Below the pieces are notes generated by a model, which saw only the letters and a program-made list of their open reading frames with translations, was not told where the DNA came from and did no database searches. From Hydrogenophaga pseudoflava NBRC 102511 (GTDB taxonomy: Bacteria > Pseudomonadota > Gammaproteobacteria > Burkholderiales > Burkholderiaceae_C): 64,000 nt of DNA. Each line of letters opens with the position of its first letter. The first letter of the stretch is position 1. Location of the stretch: contig NZ_BCWQ01000002.1 of NCBI RefSeq assembly GCF_001592285.1, positions 186,001 to 250,000 of the forward strand, in the 5' to 3' direction. The position numbers and the translations under genes are program-made. This document shows positions 7,728 through 43,455 of the stretch, in pieces.

Positions 7728-9638
7728 TTACCCGCTGCCCGCCGGGTCGTGCCGCTGCAGAGGGAAGAGGAAGCGCACGCACGTCCCGGGCGCGGCCTCC
7801 TCAAACGACACCAGCACACCGAGTTCGGCCGCTCGCAGCCGGATGTTGCCCATCCCGCGCCCGCCCCCGCCAGACAAACCGCCGTCAAGCCTGCCCAGTC
7901 CAACGCCATCGTCGGACACACACAGCTCGACCTGCCCGCCCAGGTCCCGTGTGCTCACCGTGACCCGCCCGGCCTGCGCGTGCTTGAGCACGTTCGCAAA
8001 AACCTCCTGCAGACAACGGAACACATGCAACACGCCCCGGGCCTCCAGCCCTGGAATCGGTGGCACCTCCTGCACCTGCCAGACCAACTCCACCCCGGCC
8101 GCCAGCATCGCCGGCGCAATGCGCTGGCGCAAGGTGCCCAGGATGGTGGGTAGGTCGCCGTCCATGGGCTCGAGGGAATCCAGGGTCATGCGCAGATCTT
8201 CCAGCGCATGGTGGAGCATGGCCGCCATCGCCGCGGTGTCGACCTGGGGTCCGCCGCCACGGACCACGTTGAGCGCCTGCACCAGTTGGCTGCCCAGGCC
8301 ATCGTGCATGTCGCGCGTGAGGCGGCGGCGCTCGGCCTCCAGCACACGCTGGCTCTCCACGTGGCGCAAACGCTCGAACAGCCGCTGCAACTCGACCTCT
8401 CTCTCCCCCACCTTGCGCGAGAGTTCGGTGTTGAGCAGCCGAACCTGCTCCATGGCCGCCGACACCCGGCGCACCATCACCCAGCCCAGGGCGTACATCA
8501 GCATCAGCGACCCCACCGTCATCCAGCGGATGTCGGCATCGCCAGGAAAACCCATGTTCACAACGGCAAAGTCGCGCACGCCAGTGGCCATGGTGGCAGC
8601 ACCAAACACGATGGTGAGCCGCTGGTTGGCATCGAGCCCCCAGCGCGCCCGGTGGAACAGCTTCACGAGTGCCACCGCCGAGGTCAGTGTGATCACAGCC
8701 ATCCAGATCCAGTACATGGCGTAGCTGTCGACGTACACCGTGACCGCCAGCCAGAACGGGCCGAGCCACAACAGTCCATTGACAAAGCTGCGGATCAGCC
8801 CCTGCCGGTAGTCGAACAGGTCCCACATGAAGAGATACAAAAACCCGCAGTAGGCCGTGAACGAGAGCTTCTGCAGGTAGTACCAGACCTCGAAGGACAT
8901 CGGCGGCGTTTCCAGCGGCGACAGCCCCAGCCGCACCGCCCATGCGAAGGTGGCCGCCGCCAGCAGGCCAAACAGCCGTTCGCGGGTGTTCAGCCACAGG
9001 AGCAGCGCCATCAGGCCGAGCATCAGCGACACGGCGGCCACCATCCAGGTCACGTACACCTGCCACCACATCAGGTCAGCATGGCGCTGGACCAGCGCAT
9101 CGGCCCGGCCGATCTGCACCTGCGACAGCCCGCTCTTGCGCAGCGGCTGACCTCGCACCTCGATCTCGATTCGGTTGTCGGCCTGCTCGGCCGCCAGCCA
9201 GGCGCGCGGCAGATGCACGATCTGGGGCACGAGGGAGGTGTCCACAAAACCCTCGTACGACCAGAAACGGTCGGCGACTTCCTGCCCGTTGAGCCAGACC
9301 CGGTACCGGGCCCCGACCCGCGGCAGCAGCATGGCCAACGGAGCCTGGTCGTCGCCGCTGTAGGACAAGCCGGCAGGCCACGGCAACCGGTACCGCGCTT
9401 CGCCTTCCCAGCGGGGCAACTGCTCATCCCAGACATGGGGCAGCGCCACCTCCGACACCTGCAACACGCCGGCCTGCCGGTGCTCCACCAGGGCCTGCCG
9501 GACCACCAGGGCGCCCTCCACCGGGGTGGTGCGCGACACCCAGGCCAGACCGGCAATGCCCACCGCCAGCAGCATGCCCGCCCACCAGTAGGCCGGCGTC
9601 GCCAGCAGCCGCCGGGTCAGCGCCCCCGCCCAGCTCAC
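7728..9638 (-). CDS. Membrane sensor histidine kinase, HisKA_3 (NarX/DegS-like) type
   Basis: A 636-residue kinase. After an N-terminal membrane anchor (about 18-36) there is an extracytoplasmic domain to about residue 190, then a block of about seven hydrophobic helices (about 195-385). This layout resembles 7TMR-DISM receptors that bind carbohydrates or other ligands. The dimerisation/phosphoacceptor region has [11 protein letters not shown] (His at about 445), the HisKA_3 signature, and the C-terminal HATPase has SDDGVGLG and [11 protein letters not shown]. The start overlaps the stop of the response-regulator gene by 3-4 bases, so the two are co-translated. The signal and target genes are unknown. 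Confidence 0.85.
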
Positions 9639-10330
9639 AGCAGACCTCGTTCCTGCGCGGCGCGGACCACCTGGACCCGGCTGTGAACCGCCAGCTTGCG
9701 GTAGAGGTTCTTGATGTGCGAGCCCACCGTGGCGGGCGATATGAACAGCCGCTGGGCGATTTCCTTGTTGACGTAGCCCTGTGCGACCAGCCGGAGCACC
9801 TCGGTCTCCCGGTCCGAGAGCAGGACTTCCTGCAACTCCTGGGCCGCGGTCGGCACCTCTTGCACCCAGCGGAACTGACGCAGCAGCATGCGCGCCAGCA
9901 AGGGCGAGATCGGCGCCCCGCCGGCCCGGATCTGTTCGATGGCGGTGACCAGTTCCTCTGGCGTGCAGCCTTTGAGCACATAACCGGTCGCCCCGGCCTG
10001 CAGCGCGGCCACGAGGCGGGACTCATCGCCAAACACGGTGAATACCAGCAGTTCGGCGTCAGGATGTTCGACGGCGAGCCAGTGCAGCAGATCCTCACCC
10101 CGCCCATCGGGCAGGCCAAGATCGACCAGAAACACATTGGCGTTGGCATGCAGCGCGTGTTCCAGCGCGTGGCGGCGGCTCACCGACACGCCAACCAGTT
10201 GCCACTGTGGCCGGGACAACAAGGCCTGCCGGACGAAGTGCTGGATGGCGGGATCGTCTTCGATCAGGTAAATGCGCGTTTCATCGTCCATCTGTGCGGA
10301 CTGCTGCGACCCTCGCGATGCGGTGTTCAT
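9635..10330 (-). CDS. NarL/LuxR-family response regulator
   Basis: A two-domain regulator of about 231 residues. The receiver domain begins at DDETRIYLIEDDPA; the phosphorylated Asp lies in VFLVDLGLPDGRGEDLL. The C-terminal GerE/LuxR HTH reads LSDRETEVLRLVAQGYVNKEI. It is the first gene of the operon with the histidine kinase, which it overlaps. Start choice is uncertain: ATGs at 10373-10375, 10328-10330 and 10289-10291 are all in frame. The last sits right before receiver homology, and none has a strong ribosome site. Confidence 0.85.
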   Translation of the reverse strand: MNTASRGSQQSAQMDDETRIYLIEDDPAIQHFVRQALLSRPQWQLVGVSVSRRHALEHALHANANVFLVDLGLPDGRGEDLLHWLAVEHPDAELLVFTVFGDESRLVAALQAGATGYVLKGCTPEELVTAIEQIRAGGAPISPLLARMLLRQFRWVQEVPTAAQELQEVLLSDRETEVLRLVAQGYVNKEIAQRLFISPATVGSHIKNLYRKLAVHSRVQVVRAAQERGLL

Positions 10331-10420
10331 GCGTGAACGAAAGGTGTTGTTGTGAGCGCCCCCCGGCATCTGCATGCCGCCCCCTTCGCGGCGCCCCGGC
10401 CGGTATTGTGCGGCAGCTGC

Positions 10421-12508
10421 TCAGGCGACCTTGTCCTGTCCGGAAGCGCCGAACAGACGCTCCTTGAGCCGGGTCAACTGGTCTCGCACAGACGCCGCCT
10501 TCTCGAACTCCAGGTTGCGCGCGTGCTCCAGCATCTGCTTTTCCAGCCGCTTGATTTCCCGCGCAGCGTCCTTTTCGTCCAGCGCCTCCAGGTCGGCCTT
10601 CTGCGCGCTGGCCGCCGCCAGGCGGTCCGCCTCCCGTCCCGCCTTCTCGCTGTAAACGCCGTCGATCAGGTCCTTGATGCGTTTGACCACACCCTTGGGC
10701 GTGATGCCGTTCGCCTCGTTGAACGCGATCTGCTTGGCCCGGCGCCGCTCGGTCTCGTCCATCGCCCTCTTCATCGAGTCGGTGATGCGGTCGGCATACA
10801 GAATGGCCTTGCCGTTGAGGTTGCGTGCCGCGCGGCCGATGGTCTGGATCAGCGAGCGCTCGGCGCGCAGGAAGCCTTCCTTGTCGGCATCCAGAATGGC
10901 CACCAGCGACACCTCGGGAATGTCCAGCCCCTCGCGCAGCAGGTTGATGCCCACCAGCACATCGAAGGCGCCCAGGCGCAGGTCGCGGATGATCTCGACC
11001 CGCTCGACCGTGTCCACGTCGCTGTGCAGATAGCGCACCTTGACCCCGTTCTCGGTCAGGTAGTCGGTCAGTTGCTCGGCCATGCGTTTGGTCAGCGTGG
11101 TGATGAGCACCCGCTCACCCTGCTCCACCCGGATGCGGATCTCCTGCAGCACATCGTCCACCTGGTGGGTGGCCGGCCGCACCTCGACCACGGGGTCGAC
11201 CAGGCCTGTGGGACGCACCACCTGCTCCACCACCTTGCCGGCGTGCGTCTTCTCGTAGTCGGCCGGCGTGGCCGAGACGAAGATGCACTGGCGCATGCGC
11301 TGCTCGAACTCCTCGAACTTCAGCGGCCGGTTGTCCAACGCGCTGGGCAGCCGGAACCCGTATTCCACCAGCGTGGTCTTGCGCTGGCGGTCGCCGTTGT
11401 ACATGGCGTTGAGCTGGCCGATCATCTGGTGGCTCTCGTCCAGGAACATGATGGCGTCGCGCGGCAGGTAGTCGGTCAGCGTGGCTGGCGGGTCGCCCGG
11501 CGCACTGCCGGCCAGGTGGCGCGAATAGTTCTCGATGCCCTTGCAGTGGCCGACCTCGCTGAGCATCTCGATGTCGAAGCGCGTGCGCTGCTCCAGCCGC
11601 TGGGCTTCGACCAGTTTGCCCATGCCCACCAGCTGCGCCAGCCGCTCGCGCAGCTCTTCCTTGATGGCCTCGACGGCGCTGAGCACCTGCTCGCGCGGCG
11701 TCACGTAGTGGCTGCTGGGGTAGACGGTGAAGCGCGGGATCTTCTGCCGCACCTTGCCCGTGAGCGGGTCGAACAGCTGGAGACTCTCGACCTCGTCGTC
11801 GAACAGCTCGATGCGGATCGCCATCTCCGAGTGTTCGGCCGGGAACACGTCGATGGTGTCGCCGCGCACGCGAAACTTGCCTCGGGAAAAGTCTTGCTCG
11901 TTGCGGCTGTACTGCATGCGCACCAGCTGTGCGATCAGGTCGCGCTGGCCGGCCTTGTCGCCCACGCGCAGCGTCATCACCATCTGGTGGTAGCTCTCGG
12001 GCTTGCCAATGCCATAGATGGCCGAGACGGTGGCCACGATCACCACGTCGCGCCGCTCCAGGATGCTCTTGGTGCAACTCAGCCGCATCTGCTCGATGTG
12101 CTCGTTGATCGCACTGTCCTTCTCGATGAACAGATCGCGCTGCGGCACATAGGCCTCGGGCTGGTAGTAGTCGTAATAGCTGACGAAGTACTCGACCGCG
12201 TTCTTGGGGAAGAACTCGCGGAATTCGGAGTACAGCTGCGCAGCCAGCGTCTTGTTGGGCGCGAACACGATGGCCGGGCGCCCGATGCGGGCGATCACGT
12301 TGGCCATGGTGAAGGTCTTGCCCGAGCCGGTCACGCCCAGCAGGGTCTGGAACACCTCGCCGTCCTCGATGCCTTCGACCAGTCCGGCGATCGCTGTGGG
12401 CTGGTCGCCGGCCGGCGGGTAAGGCTGGAACAGCTCGAACGGGGAATCGGGGAAGCGGACGAAGGTGCCGTCCTGCTTTTCCGTGATGACTTCAGAGAGA
12501 TCCGGCAT
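10421..12508 (-). CDS. uvrB: Excinuclease ABC subunit UvrB
   Basis: A 695-residue helicase-like damage-verification subunit of nucleotide excision repair. The Walker A motif is in [14 protein letters not shown], the beta-hairpin region has [12 protein letters not shown], and the helicase motifs DESHQM and QTIGRAARN follow. The C-terminal UVR motif that binds UvrC is present ([21 protein letters not shown], about 650-670). I chose the ATG at 12506-12508 (MPDLSEVI), where homology starts; an in-frame start 57 bases upstream is less likely. It is divergent from the aminotransferase gene. Confidence 0.95.
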
Positions 12509-39524: not shown

Positions 39525-40910
39525 ATGAAAGCAGAACAGAACCAGCGCCTGACCCAGGTCGGCCCCGGCACCCCCGGTGGCGAATTGTTGCGACGCTACT
39601 GGCAACCCGTGGCCATGCTGGACGAGTTCGATCCGGCACTGGACCCATCCATGGCCATCCGCCCGGTCAAGGCGGTGCGGCTGCTGGGTCAGGACTTCGT
39701 GCTGTTCAAGGACGCCCAGGGGCGCTTCGGCCTGCTGGACCGCGACTGCCCGCACCGCGGTGCCGACCTGGCCTACGGCCGCAACGAGGGCGACGGCCTG
39801 CGCTGCCCCTTCCATGGCTGGAAGTTCGACGTGAGCGGCCAATGCACCGAAACCCCGGCGGAACCGGCGGGCAGCACGCTCTGCCAGCGCATCCGCCAGC
39901 GCAGCTACCCGCTGGTCGAAAAGGCAGGCGCATTGTTTGCATGGCTAGGCCCGGAGGGTCAGACGCCACCACCCTTCCCTGCGCTGGACTGCTTCGTCGC
40001 CCCTGCTTCGCACAGCTTCGTATTCAAGGGCCTGTGGCACTGCAACTGGTTGCAGGCGTTCGAGGTCGGCATCGACCCGGCCCACGCCTCCTACCTGCAC
40101 CGCTTCTTCAACGATGCCCCGCTGGAAGGCAGCTACGGCAAGCAGTTCCGCGGTGCCAGCGCCGGCGACATCGGTGGCGAGCGCTGGCCGATGACGCGCG
40201 TGATGCGCGAGTTCGACCAGCCCGAGATTTCCTTCACCCAGCAGCCCTGGGGGCTGCAGCTGACCGCACTGCGCCCGTTGAACGAGGCGCTGACCCATGT
40301 GCGGGTGACCAACGACGTGTTCCCGCAGACCTTCGTGATCCCGCTGTCGGAGACCATGACGATCACGCAGATGCATGTGCCGGTGGACGACACCCGCAAC
40401 TACTGGTACGCCTTCTTCACCAGCTTCGAGGCGCCGGTCGACAAGGCCACCATGCGCCAGCAGCGGCTGAAAGCCGTGACGCTGCCCGACTACATCCCCA
40501 AGGCCGGGCGCTGGAACCAATGGGGCTTCAACCCCGAGGAGCAGATGACCCGCACTTTCCTGGGCATGGGCGAGGACGACATCAACGTGCATGACCAGTG
40601 GGCCTGCGAGAGCATGGGCCCGATCCAGGACCGCACGCGCGAACACCTGGGCACCACCGACAAGGTCATCATGGCCCACCGCCGCCTGCTGCTGCAGGCC
40701 ATGGACACCGTGGCGCAGGGCGGTACGGCGCCAGGCATCGGCGATGCGGCACAGGCTGCTGGCATCACCGGACCCGACACGGTCGACGGCATCGCACCGG
40801 CCCAGGGCTGGCAGGACTGGTGGCAACGCGCGGTGCGCGACAAGCGCGAGGGTGCGCCGTGGTCAAGCGCCACCGAACCGGCACAGACGCTGCTGGCGGC
40901 TGCCAAATGA
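39525..40910 (+). CDS. Rieske non-haem iron oxygenase, phthalate 4,5-dioxygenase type (large subunit)
   Basis: A 461-residue ring-hydroxylating oxygenase alpha subunit. The Rieske [2Fe-2S] ligands are Cys75/His77 and Cys94/His97 (DCPHRGADL and CPFHGWKFD); the mononuclear iron site has Asp184 bridging and His187/His192 (GIDPAHASYLHRFF). Similarity is to single-component-type phthalate/phenoxybenzoate oxygenases that need only a reductase. An AGGAG ribosome site precedes the ATG. It is first in the catabolic run and overlaps the ligase gene by 4 bases. No reductase gene is adjacent; the ferredoxin at 42.4 kb may be its donor. Substrate unknown. Confidence 0.88.
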   Translation: MKAEQNQRLTQVGPGTPGGELLRRYWQPVAMLDEFDPALDPSMAIRPVKAVRLLGQDFVLFKDAQGRFGLLDRDCPHRGADLAYGRNEGDGLRCPFHGWKFDVSGQCTETPAEPAGSTLCQRIRQRSYPLVEKAGALFAWLGPEGQTPPPFPALDCFVAPASHSFVFKGLWHCNWLQAFEVGIDPAHASYLHRFFNDAPLEGSYGKQFRGASAGDIGGERWPMTRVMREFDQPEISFTQQPWGLQLTALRPLNEALTHVRVTNDVFPQTFVIPLSETMTITQMHVPVDDTRNYWYAFFTSFEAPVDKATMRQQRLKAVTLPDYIPKAGRWNQWGFNPEEQMTRTFLGMGEDDINVHDQWACESMGPIQDRTREHLGTTDKVIMAHRRLLLQAMDTVAQGGTAPGIGDAAQAAGITGPDTVDGIAPAQGWQDWWQRAVRDKREGAPWSSATEPAQTLLAAAK

Positions 40911-42385
40911 CGTCGTTCGCCGAACGCTGCGGCCTGCACGACACCCACCGGGAGGCGGCCTGCTTGCGCGCCGCCGAGCTGATCGAGTCCAGCGGCGTCC
41001 AGCGCGTGCGCATGGGCTGGTGCGATGTGCACGGACAGTTGCGCGGCAAGACCCTGATGGCACACGCCGCGGTCAAGGCCTTGCGCGACGGCGTCGGCAT
41101 GGTCGGCACCATGATGCTCAAGGACACCTCGGACCACACCGCCTGGAAGGTGTTCGAGGCCGGGGGCACCGAAGGCCTGACCGGGTTCGCCGGCGCCTCC
41201 AACCTCATGCTGCTGCCCGACCCCGAGAGCTTCACCCTGCTGCCCTGGAGCGCGGGCACGGGCTGGTTGCGCTGCCAGCCCTGGCACAGCAACGGAACGC
41301 CGGTGGCGCTGGACAGCCGGCACGTGCTGGAGCAGGCGCTGTCCAGGCTCGCGATGGCGGGCTTCGGCTTCAAGACCGGCCTGGAGGTCGAATTTCACAT
41401 CTACCGCATCACCGACGAAGCACCTCAGCTCGACCCCGAACTCGCAGGCTGGCCGGGATTGCCGCCAGCGGTGCAGATGATCCATCCCGGTTACAACCTG
41501 CAGGCCGAGGCCATGATGGACATGGCAGACGAGCCGCTGAGCATCGTGATGCAGACCGCCCAGGCGCTGGGCCTGCCACTGCAGTCGCTGGAGATTGAGC
41601 TGGGCCCGAGCCAGGTGGAGGCGGTGTTCGACGCCACCGATGCGCTGACCGCCGCCGACCAGATGGTGCTGTTCCGCAACGGCGTGCGGCAGGCGCTGCG
41701 CCGCGCCGGCTACCTGGCCACCTTCATGTGCCGCCCGCCCTTCCCCAACATCATGTCCAGCGGCTGGCACCTGCACCAGTCACTGGTTGAACGCGATGGC
41801 GGCCGCAACGGCTGTGCGCGCGCCGCTCCCGCCGAGGACAGCACGGTGCGCGACGCCCGCCACACCCTCTCGGACGCCGGTGCCCACTGGCTGGCCGGCC
41901 TGCTGGCGCATGCGCCGGGCATGACCGCGCTGTGTACCCCCACCATCAACGGCTTCGGCCGCTTCCGGCCCAACGCCCTGGCGCCGCAGCACATCCTCTG
42001 GGGCCAGGACAACCGAGGCGCGATGTTGCGCGTGGTGGGCGCCGCGGGCGACCCCGCCACCCGGATTGAAAACCGCATCGGCGAGCCCGCGGCCAATCCC
42101 TACCTCTACATGGCGTCCCAAATCCATGCCGGCCTGGACGGCCTGCTGCGCGGCCTGGAACCTCCGCCCGCCACCGACAATCCCTATGCCACCGGCCACG
42201 CTCGCCTGCCGGACAACCTGGGCGATGCCCTGGCCGCCCTGCGGGGCGACGAGGCACTGATGAACGGACTGGGCGCTGCGGTGGTCGAACACTTTTACCG
42301 CATCAAGCAGTCTGAAATCAACCGCCACGCCGACGCCCAGGACAAGGCAGACTTTGAACGGCGCGAATACTTCAGCCGCTACTGA
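40907..42385 (+). CDS. Glutamine synthetase-like gamma-glutamyl ligase
   Basis: A 492-residue class of GS-fold ligase related to PuuA, GlnT and gamma-glutamylanilide or gamma-glutamylisopropylamide synthases, not housekeeping GlnA. The beta-grasp domain has RMGWCDVHGQLRGKTL; the catalytic domain has GLEVEFHIY, the ATP/glutamate loop SGWHLHQSL, WGQDNRGAMLRV and RIENRIGEPAANPYLYMA, so metal and nucleotide ligands are largely kept. It overlaps the Rieske oxygenase by ATGA, a sign the two act together. Reaction expected: glutamate + amine + ATP to gamma-glutamylamide. The amine is unknown. Confidence 0.82.
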   Translation: MTSFAERCGLHDTHREAACLRAAELIESSGVQRVRMGWCDVHGQLRGKTLMAHAAVKALRDGVGMVGTMMLKDTSDHTAWKVFEAGGTEGLTGFAGASNLMLLPDPESFTLLPWSAGTGWLRCQPWHSNGTPVALDSRHVLEQALSRLAMAGFGFKTGLEVEFHIYRITDEAPQLDPELAGWPGLPPAVQMIHPGYNLQAEAMMDMADEPLSIVMQTAQALGLPLQSLEIELGPSQVEAVFDATDALTAADQMVLFRNGVRQALRRAGYLATFMCRPPFPNIMSSGWHLHQSLVERDGGRNGCARAAPAEDSTVRDARHTLSDAGAHWLAGLLAHAPGMTALCTPTINGFGRFRPNALAPQHILWGQDNRGAMLRVVGAAGDPATRIENRIGEPAANPYLYMASQIHAGLDGLLRGLEPPPATDNPYATGHARLPDNLGDALAALRGDEALMNGLGAAVVEHFYRIKQSEINRHADAQDKADFERREYFSRY

Positions 42386-42399
42386 TTCACTTCTTTCAC

Positions 42400-42729
42400 A
42401 TGAGCACCATCCACATCCGTTTCGTCCACGCCGACCAGACCGAAGAAACCATCACCGCCGCCACCGGCCAGAGCCTGATGAAGGCCGCTGTCGACGCCGA
42501 TATCCATGGCATCGAGGCCGATTGCGGCGGCGTTCTCACCTGCGCCACCTGCCACGTCATGATCGACAGCCCCTGGGCCGAGAAGCTGCCCAAGCCGGTG
42601 GCCGACGAAACCGACATGCTCGATTTCGCGGCCAGTCCGGTCGAGTCCGGCAGCCGGCTGAGCTGCCAGGTTCGGCTGACACCCGAGCTCGATGGGCTGG
42701 TGGTCCGCCTGCCCGCCTCGCAACACTGA
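42400..42729 (+). CDS. [2Fe-2S] ferredoxin (adrenodoxin type)
   Basis: A 109-residue ferredoxin. Cluster ligands are in ADCGGVLTCATCH (Cys42, Cys48, Cys51 by my count) with the fourth in SRLSCQV near residue 86. It is distinct from the isc fdx in its acidic and C-terminal regions and resembles ferredoxins that feed P450s and Rieske oxygenases. It lies 14 bp after the GS-like gene, so it probably donates electrons to the upstream oxygenase; a ferredoxin reductase must come from elsewhere. Confidence 0.88.
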   Translation: MSTIHIRFVHADQTEETITAATGQSLMKAAVDADIHGIEADCGGVLTCATCHVMIDSPWAEKLPKPVADETDMLDFAASPVESGSRLSCQVRLTPELDGLVVRLPASQH

Positions 42730-42759
42730 CCCGCCTCCCCGAGTACTGAAAGGTCACCG

Positions 42760-43455
42760 ATGAGCTACACCTTCGCCCCGCCCGCCGTCGTCTCCGTGCC
42801 CGTGGTGGGGCGCGCCGAACGCTTTCCCGTCCACCGCATCTACTGCGTGGGCCGCAACTACGAAGAACACGCCAAGGAAATGGGCTTCACCGGCCGCGAG
42901 CCGCCATTCTTCTTCCTCAAACCTGCCGACGCCATCGTGGTGGCCGAGGCCGGACAGACCGCCACCATCCCCTACCCGTCGCTCACCGGCAACCTGCACC
43001 ACGAGATCGAGCTGGTCGTCGCCATCGGCCGGGGTGGACGGAACATCAAGGCAGCCGATGCCGCCAGCCACATCTACGGCTACGCCGTGGGGCTGGACAT
43101 GACCCGCAGAGATCTTCAAAACGACATGAAGAAACAGGGCCGCCCCTGGTGCATCGGCAAGGCCTTCGACCAGTCGGCGCCCATCGGCCCCATCACACCC
43201 GCCGCTGAAGCCGGCGACATCGCCAACGCCGCGATCTGGGTCCAGGTGAACGGCACCGACCGTCAGCGCAGCAATGTCTCGAAGCTCATCTGGAACATCG
43301 CCGAAACCATCGAGCACCTGTCGGCGGCCTGGGAACTGCAACCCGGCGACCTCATCTACACCGGCACACCCGAAGGCGTGGCTGCGGTGGTCAGCGGCGA
43401 CACCATGAGCGGTGGTGTCGACGGACTCACCAGCATTGCTGTGCACGTGGGGTGA
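42760..43455 (+). CDS. Fumarylacetoacetate hydrolase-family enzyme (FAHD1/fumarylpyruvate hydrolase-like)
   Basis: A 231-residue single-domain FAH-fold protein. The metal site is seen in YCVGRNYEEHAKEMG, HHEIELVVAIG (two acidic ligands) and GYAVGLDMTRRDLQ (Asp); FFFLKPADAIV and PEGVAAVVSGD are further family signatures. Members hydrolyse acylpyruvates such as fumarylpyruvate or decarboxylate oxaloacetate. In this run it could handle a ring-cleavage product, though no ring-cleavage dioxygenase is present. It follows the ferredoxin gene by 30 bp. Confidence 0.85.
   Translation: MSYTFAPPAVVSVPVVGRAERFPVHRIYCVGRNYEEHAKEMGFTGREPPFFFLKPADAIVVAEAGQTATIPYPSLTGNLHHEIELVVAIGRGGRNIKAADAASHIYGYAVGLDMTRRDLQNDMKKQGRPWCIGKAFDQSAPIGPITPAAEAGDIANAAIWVQVNGTDRQRSNVSKLIWNIAETIEHLSAAWELQPGDLIYTGTPEGVAAVVSGDTMSGGVDGLTSIAVHVG

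Follow-up and report, generated by a model that had tools for sequence, protein, structure and literature searches.

The stretch of DNA analysed here, called the window throughout, comprises 64,000 nucleotides of Hydrogenophaga pseudoflava NBRC 102511 (positions 186001–250000 of contig 2 in a 4.5-Mb assembly). As an earlier note on this DNA had described, positions 39525–43455 hold genes for a phthalate-type Rieske oxygenase, a glutamine synthetase (GS)-like ligase, a ferredoxin and an FAH-family protein, the stop codon of the first and the start codon of the second sharing an ATGA. The note considered this module uncharacterised; it matches, instead, the sad operon described in Hydrogenophaga. 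Taken as a whole, the module is best explained as that operon, with a probability that we put at about 0.88, because genus, operon and gene order are all the same.

In H. intermedia PBC, the sad operon serves the deamination of 4-aminobenzenesulfonate to 4-sulfocatechol with the involvement of SadA, SadB and SadD; sadA stands for 4-aminobenzenesulfonate 3,4-dioxygenase and sadB for glutamine synthetase, and a ferredoxin accompanies them (Gan et al. 2017, PMC5632844). The same paper gives WP_009515254.1 as the SadA accession, reports the operon as fairly conserved throughout the Hydrogenophaga genomes reported by then, considers its original substrate likely to be a natural compound structurally near 4-aminobenzenesulfonate, and has in its strain table the sources of two of our loci, H. 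intermedia S1 (CCAE01) for L069 and H. flava NBRC 102514 (BCTF01) for L001. The window oxygenase is 98% identical to its H. flava homologue, placing the window in Hydrogenophaga. In S1, the six genes listed below recur in unchanged order (oxygenase, GS-like ligase, ferredoxin, FAH, DctP, Nudix), with identities of 76, 75, 67, 85, 86 and 79%, respectively.

39525–40910, + strand: SadA-type Rieske oxygenase, phthalate-type, single alpha subunit, 461 amino acids (aa); Pfam Rieske and LigXa_C
40907–42385, + strand: SadB-type GS-like gamma-glutamyl ligase, 492 aa; Pfam Gln-synt_C, 235 bits
42400–42729, + strand: plant-type [2Fe-2S] ferredoxin (sad operon ferredoxin), 109 aa; Pfam Fer2, 39 bits
42760–43455, + strand: FAH-family protein, YcgM-like, 231 aa; Pfam FAA_hydrolase, 192 bits
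43540–44598, + strand: TRAP transporter substrate-binding protein DctP; Pfam DctP, 131 bits
44670–45224, + strand, as the operon: Nudix gene, assigned with Pfam

S1 contains no second close full-length oxygenase (the next is 38% identical, and partial matches reach at most 47%) and no second close ligase (the next, 44% identical, is partial and lies at the end of a contig).

The oxygenase and ligase genes stay together far beyond this genus. We compared 80 close loci (the best 80 of 384 relatives found) and a wider set of 49, made up of 13 plasmid loci and 36 from genomes of the order or phylum and omitting the window genome, G001 and a second, weaker match in G534 (L144). When an 11-row oxygenase alignment was searched against 300 genomes of the order to which the window belongs, 19 gave a match with an E value no higher than 1e-120; among 398 genomes of the phylum, 21 did so with a limit of 1e-80. 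In 79 of the 80 close loci, the gene immediately following the oxygenase on its strand is the ligase, the sole exception (L071) ending within the oxygenase, and this arrangement recurs in 43 of the 49 wider loci. The ligase is found elsewhere in the locus in four others (L118, L120, L122 and L164) and is missing from two, L178, which ends at the oxygenase, and L171, a 5-kb contig with oxygenase and ferredoxin. The adjacency, kept across several orders, is therefore not due to chance. Among plasmids, none of the 17 listed records with a mere 33–37% oxygenase match occurs among the 40 listed ligase records; 23 oxygenase and seven ligase records lie beyond those listed. A ligase search of 40 relatives gave a match of at least 69% in 19 of 23 genomes of the same genus, the window's own excluded (that of G020 being partial), and the operon also occurs in many Limnohabitans. 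Ferredoxin homologues were present in 61 of the close loci, FAH homologues in 33 (and in three wider loci) and DctP homologues in 29 (and in seven wider loci); DctM homologues occurred in three close and seven wider loci.

The ligase belongs to a family that acts on aromatic amines. Its best match in the PDB is the 1-naphthylamine ligase NpaA1 (8WWU), at 325 bits, with the next at 157; NpaA1 glutamylates aromatic amines ahead of Rieske oxygenation (PMC11335346). Scores against the NCBIfam models for PuuA (NF045547; 206.9 bits, cut-off 650) and type III GS (211 bits, cut-off 470) fell far short of their cut-offs. A 51-row tree puts the window ligase among the Hydrogenophaga rows (support 100/99) and separates sad-linked and aniline-type ligases, taken together, from E. 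coli PuuA and GlnA (98/98). On sequence grounds, the window ligase thus groups with the aniline and naphthylamine ligases, and an assignment to the PuuA-type polyamine ligases is rejected by both score and tree. The aniline-type rows (NpaA1 and L193–L195) form one clade (100/99) nested inside the sad-linked rows, a nesting made insecure by the very long PuuA/GlnA outgroup branches, of about 6.9 changes, which leave the root of the tree unsure. Aniline-type ligases may have derived from acid-amine ligases through loss of the lysine described next, a derivation that hinges on this rooting.

In NpaA1, the amine pocket is lined by a loop of the neighbouring subunit (V68–M81), and the aromatic ring is held by A69, I70, G71, P72 and F75 (PMC11335346). 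With numbering anchored on V68, F75, M81, V201, E232, E234 and W235, all of which fit, the window ligase aligns without gaps across the long pocket loop (15th motif) and retains both amine-site glutamates, E232 and E234. At the position of F75, it carries a lysine (K72), as do all 122 sad-linked ligases compared, and the next residue is aspartate in 121 of them; many of the 122 are near-copies, and of the 127 loci matching a ligase, five were set aside because the sequence was short or contained stops. The nine other rows have phenylalanine (six), valine, methionine or a gap at this position. Lys72 may bind an acidic substituent of the substrate ring, either a sulfonate or a carboxylate; uncharged anilines carry no such group.

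The oxygenase scores 82 bits with LigXa_C and 63 bits with Rieske, and the solved chains nearest to it are 9ina, 7fhr (named phthalate 4,5-dioxygenase) and 7fjl. A naturally split form of this enzyme was observed in two Rhodobacterales plasmids, whose SadA homologues (L118, 8539–10212; L122, about 9557–11224) keep the DxxHx4H iron-site motif without the [2Fe-2S] Rieske motif, a separate Rieske protein gene lying directly upstream. The L118 protein was matched in 37 of 295 genomes of the family of G525. Thirty of these loci were fetched; 22 keep the fused Rieske domain and eight (L209–L216) lack the Rieske motif. All eight carry a stand-alone Rieske gene directly upstream, 58–74% identical to that of L118, and seven have a GS-like ligase within the locus of roughly 4.2 kb.

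The conservation of the pair and the described sad operon support well a joint action of ligase and oxygenase. The earlier note proposed that the ligase masks an amine and that the oxygenase attacks the glutamyl product, and this is still the best mechanism. In this scheme, SadB would use ATP to join the gamma-carboxyl of L-glutamate to the amino group of an acid-bearing aromatic amine, and SadA, supplied with electrons by the adjacent ferredoxin, would introduce two hydroxyl groups, one on the ring carbon that bears the glutamylated nitrogen and one on the carbon next to it. Loss of the glutamyl-amine would then leave a catechol, which from 4-aminobenzenesulfonate would be 4-sulfocatechol. 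In the 2012 abstract of Gan and colleagues, removal of sadB reportedly abolished activity in E. coli and the reductase gene sadC is said to be located separately; if so, the first point would mean that the need for the ligase had already been demonstrated.

The electron supply varies among relatives. A glutathione-reductase-type FAD ferredoxin reductase is linked to the pair in 10 wider loci (L115, L116, L117, L119, L120, L121, L145, L181, L182 and L185) and a reductase of another type in two; a glutamine-amidotransferase-family gene occurs in five, being of one type in L116 and PuuD-like in L119, L121, L181 and L185. Neither kind of gene was found in the 80 close loci, nor did the 25 open reading frames (ORFs) scanned with Pfam in the window, from 24.5 to 55.5 kb, include a small oxygenase subunit, a reductase or an amidotransferase. 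The earlier note was accurate about their absence, but the variation among relatives argues against its use of the missing reductase and amidotransferase as marks of a class. Membership of the AtdA-type aniline dioxygenases is likewise rejected, as the two-subunit oxygenase of that type was also missing from the scanned ORFs. In S1, a reductase with a 65% match to that of L116 is encoded outside the sad operon (L201, on contig 41 of G040), beside GntR and ABC-transporter genes; these genes, the FAD reductase included, are 65–84% like those adjoining the Polaromonas JS666 operon. The 4.2 kb of L201 contained no match to the oxygenase or the ligase, and its reductase is a candidate for serving the sad system from an unlinked position.

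As for recycling of the glutamyl group, Limnohabitans-type loci carry, divergent to the pair, a GGACT gene (PF06094, gamma-glutamylamine-cyclotransferase family; L058, 5416–5811, − strand), whose product could recycle gamma-glutamyl amines. Homologues occur in 33 of the close loci (10 of these at just 34–43%) and in none of the wider ones. We claim no such role in the window, because of the housekeeping-gene surroundings and because no match was found in 15 Hydrogenophaga genomes.

In the window, the operon is flanked on its 5' side by a thymidine-phosphorylase-like gene and an ORF of 537 aa with a GST domain, and on the 3' side of the Nudix gene by MerR-family and phenylalanyl-tRNA synthetase genes, all on the opposite strand. 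No DctQ or DctM gene was found near DctP among the ORFs scanned there. The FAH-family protein remains under every NCBIfam cut-off shown, and the idea that it marks a gentisate route is unsupported, gentisate genes not having been searched for. We infer that the FAH and DctP proteins may belong to the same pathway as the oxygenase and ligase.

Several observations weigh against identity with the sad operon. Orthology to the sad genes was judged from the S1 proteins, the best and only close matches there, as stand-ins for the SadA, SadB and SadD accessions (WP_009515254.1, WP_009515256.1 and WP_009515258.1); identity to S1 is 67–76% for oxygenase, ligase and ferredoxin. In the published description, the legend gives SadD as WP_009515258.1 and the key has sadC as the ferredoxin, so that the subunit letters conflict, and the downstream genes for 4-sulfocatechol are described as conserved in H. 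intermedia only (Gan et al. 2017, PMC5632844). No close ligase is present in four of the 23 same-genus genomes (G008, G009, G013 and G016), whose GS proteins are all distant. The ferredoxin has homologues in just 18 of the 49 wider loci, and the sad-linked ligases, with the aniline types inside them, do not make a single clade in the tree with its unsure root. Finally, the closest relative in the window genome of the pair-linked reductase type is only 33% identical, so that its ferredoxin presumably depends on a reductase of some other kind.

The earlier note proposed that amines or N-aryl compounds may be degraded here by a new route, unlike all those described, and the missing small subunit, reductase and amidotransferase, together with the identity of just 75–76% to the oxygenase and ligase of the 4-aminobenzenesulfonate degrader S1, are compatible with it. 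However, the sad system of the same genus likewise combines a one-subunit oxygenase, a GS-like protein and a ferredoxin, in the same order, and plasmid pSA3 of a sulfanilate degrader also carries the pair, making a new route very improbable. Even less credible is a ligase for aliphatic amines or polyamines, similar to PuuA or IpuC and co-transcribed with the oxygenase by happenstance. The protein is GS-like and has some similarity to the PuuA model, in a comparison that was made without IpuC, but its 206.9 bits are far under the cut-off, long and supported branches separate it from E. coli PuuA, and the pair is kept across several orders. Both of the checks that the earlier note had suggested, ligase phylogeny and conservation of the gene pair, therefore turned out in favour of a joint pathway, with the ligase falling among GS-like enzymes that glutamylate amines, apart from PuuA.

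Within the sad identification, the natural substrate is a separate matter. We tentatively favour, at somewhat less than even odds, the operon being a widespread bacterial route for 4-aminobenzoate, in which SadB, with Lys72 gripping the carboxylate, would form gamma-glutamyl-4-aminobenzoate and SadA would convert it to protocatechuate, followed in Hydrogenophaga by LigAB-type cleavage; sulfanilate breakdown would be a recruited side activity. The lysine and the PnbB-type neighbours of related loci, both new observations of this analysis, point to an aminoarene with an acid group, possibly 4-aminobenzoate, with protocatechuate as product. Homologues of the L117 PF16155 protein (PnbB, 4-hydroxylaminobenzoate lyase; 214 bits, cut-off 26.9) occur in five wider loci (L117, L119, L181, L182 and L185); in the order to which the window belongs, PnbB is rare, six of 150 genomes having it anywhere. 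PnbA and PnbB convert 4-nitrobenzoate to protocatechuate (PMC13400229). A nitroreductase like that of L117 is present in five wider loci (L117, L119, L121, L182 and L185), as is a PcaK-like aromatic acid symporter (L119, L121, L181, L182 and L185, plus one weak 22% match), which accompanies the PnbB-type gene in four of the five PnbB loci; the L121 symporter reaches 567 bits with the PcaK model, below its cut-off of 770, and passes that of the broader TIGR00895. In L122, pcaB and pcaD lie near the ligase. Hydrogenophaga sp. H7 degrades 4-hydroxybenzoate through the protocatechuate 4,5-cleavage pathway (PMC6592069). The window genome contains LigA at two places, one adjoining genes for an amidohydrolase, an RraA-like protein and an oxidoreductase, as protocatechuate 4,5-cleavage predicts; the presumed LigB ORF beside it had no Pfam match.

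Other observations count against 4-aminobenzoate. LigA is present in 14 of 15 Hydrogenophaga genomes, including three without a close sad ligase (G008, G009 and G013), so it permits this substrate and provides no test of it. Among the wider loci, the PnbB, nitroreductase and PcaK-like neighbours are confined to Burkholderiaceae plasmids and M. nodulans, and a search of the 80 close loci gave none of the three. H. intermedia requires added 4-aminobenzoate, and pabB is reported as weak or missing in several Hydrogenophaga (PMC5632844). Alternatively, the native substrate could be 4-aminobenzenesulfonate or another arylsulfonate. This activity is the one reported for the sad operon, and Lys72 would suit a sulfonate equally well; yet the 4-sulfocatechol genes are reported as conserved in H. 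intermedia only, against an operon present in 19 of 23 same-genus genomes and many Limnohabitans, and five related loci have neighbours of nitro- or aminobenzoate chemistry. We thus regard an arylsulfonate as unlikely, and 4-aminobenzenesulfonate is probably not what the window strain lives on, given that restriction and the lack of a close relative of the reductase. In titles and abstract openings of the open-access literature, we found no Rieske/GS-like 4-aminobenzoate enzyme described, from which we claim no absence from print. If the 4-aminobenzoate route is real, this folate precursor would be degraded aerobically by masking and dioxygenation, hinting at the origin of a xenobiotic-degrading enzyme. 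For the substrate question of this genus-wide operon (Gan et al. 2017), the analysis offers one lysine, 4-aminobenzoate as predicted substrate and protocatechuate as predicted product.

The module resembles several known systems to different degrees. Phthalate dioxygenase (7fhr, 7fjl) shares the oxygenase family and the single alpha subunit, but the window oxygenase scores only about 200–211 bits with it; phthalate dioxygenase is not known to have a GS-like partner. Plasmid pSA3 of Novosphingobium resinovorum SA1, the sulfanilate degrader mentioned above, contains the pair, a ferredoxin, an FAD reductase and a maleylacetate reductase within about 8 kb, with the ligase likewise following the oxygenase. 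Its proteins are 55% (oxygenase) and 43% (ligase) identical to those of the window, a CHMI-family gene comes after the ligase, and ferredoxin and FAD reductase are encoded on the opposite strand at a distance of a few kilobases. Also nearby is folP, for dihydropteroate synthase (L115, 2723–3553 and 14952–15293, for this and the CHMI-family gene), and CHMI-like genes were likewise seen in L118, L122, L145 and L160. The sad system of H. intermedia PBC and S1 is the most alike, with oxygenase, GS-like and plant-type ferredoxin genes in succession as in the window, although the window strain has no close homologue of the S1 reductase. The aniline and naphthylamine dioxygenases (AtdA/TdnQ/DcaQ, NpaA1A2A3A4A5) share the ligase family and glutamylation before Rieske oxygenation. 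Unlike the window, their operons include a two-subunit oxygenase, an amidotransferase and a reductase, as in L193–L195, which were named aniline-type from their gene content, and their ligases have phenylalanine or valine at the pocket position where the sad-linked ligases have lysine.

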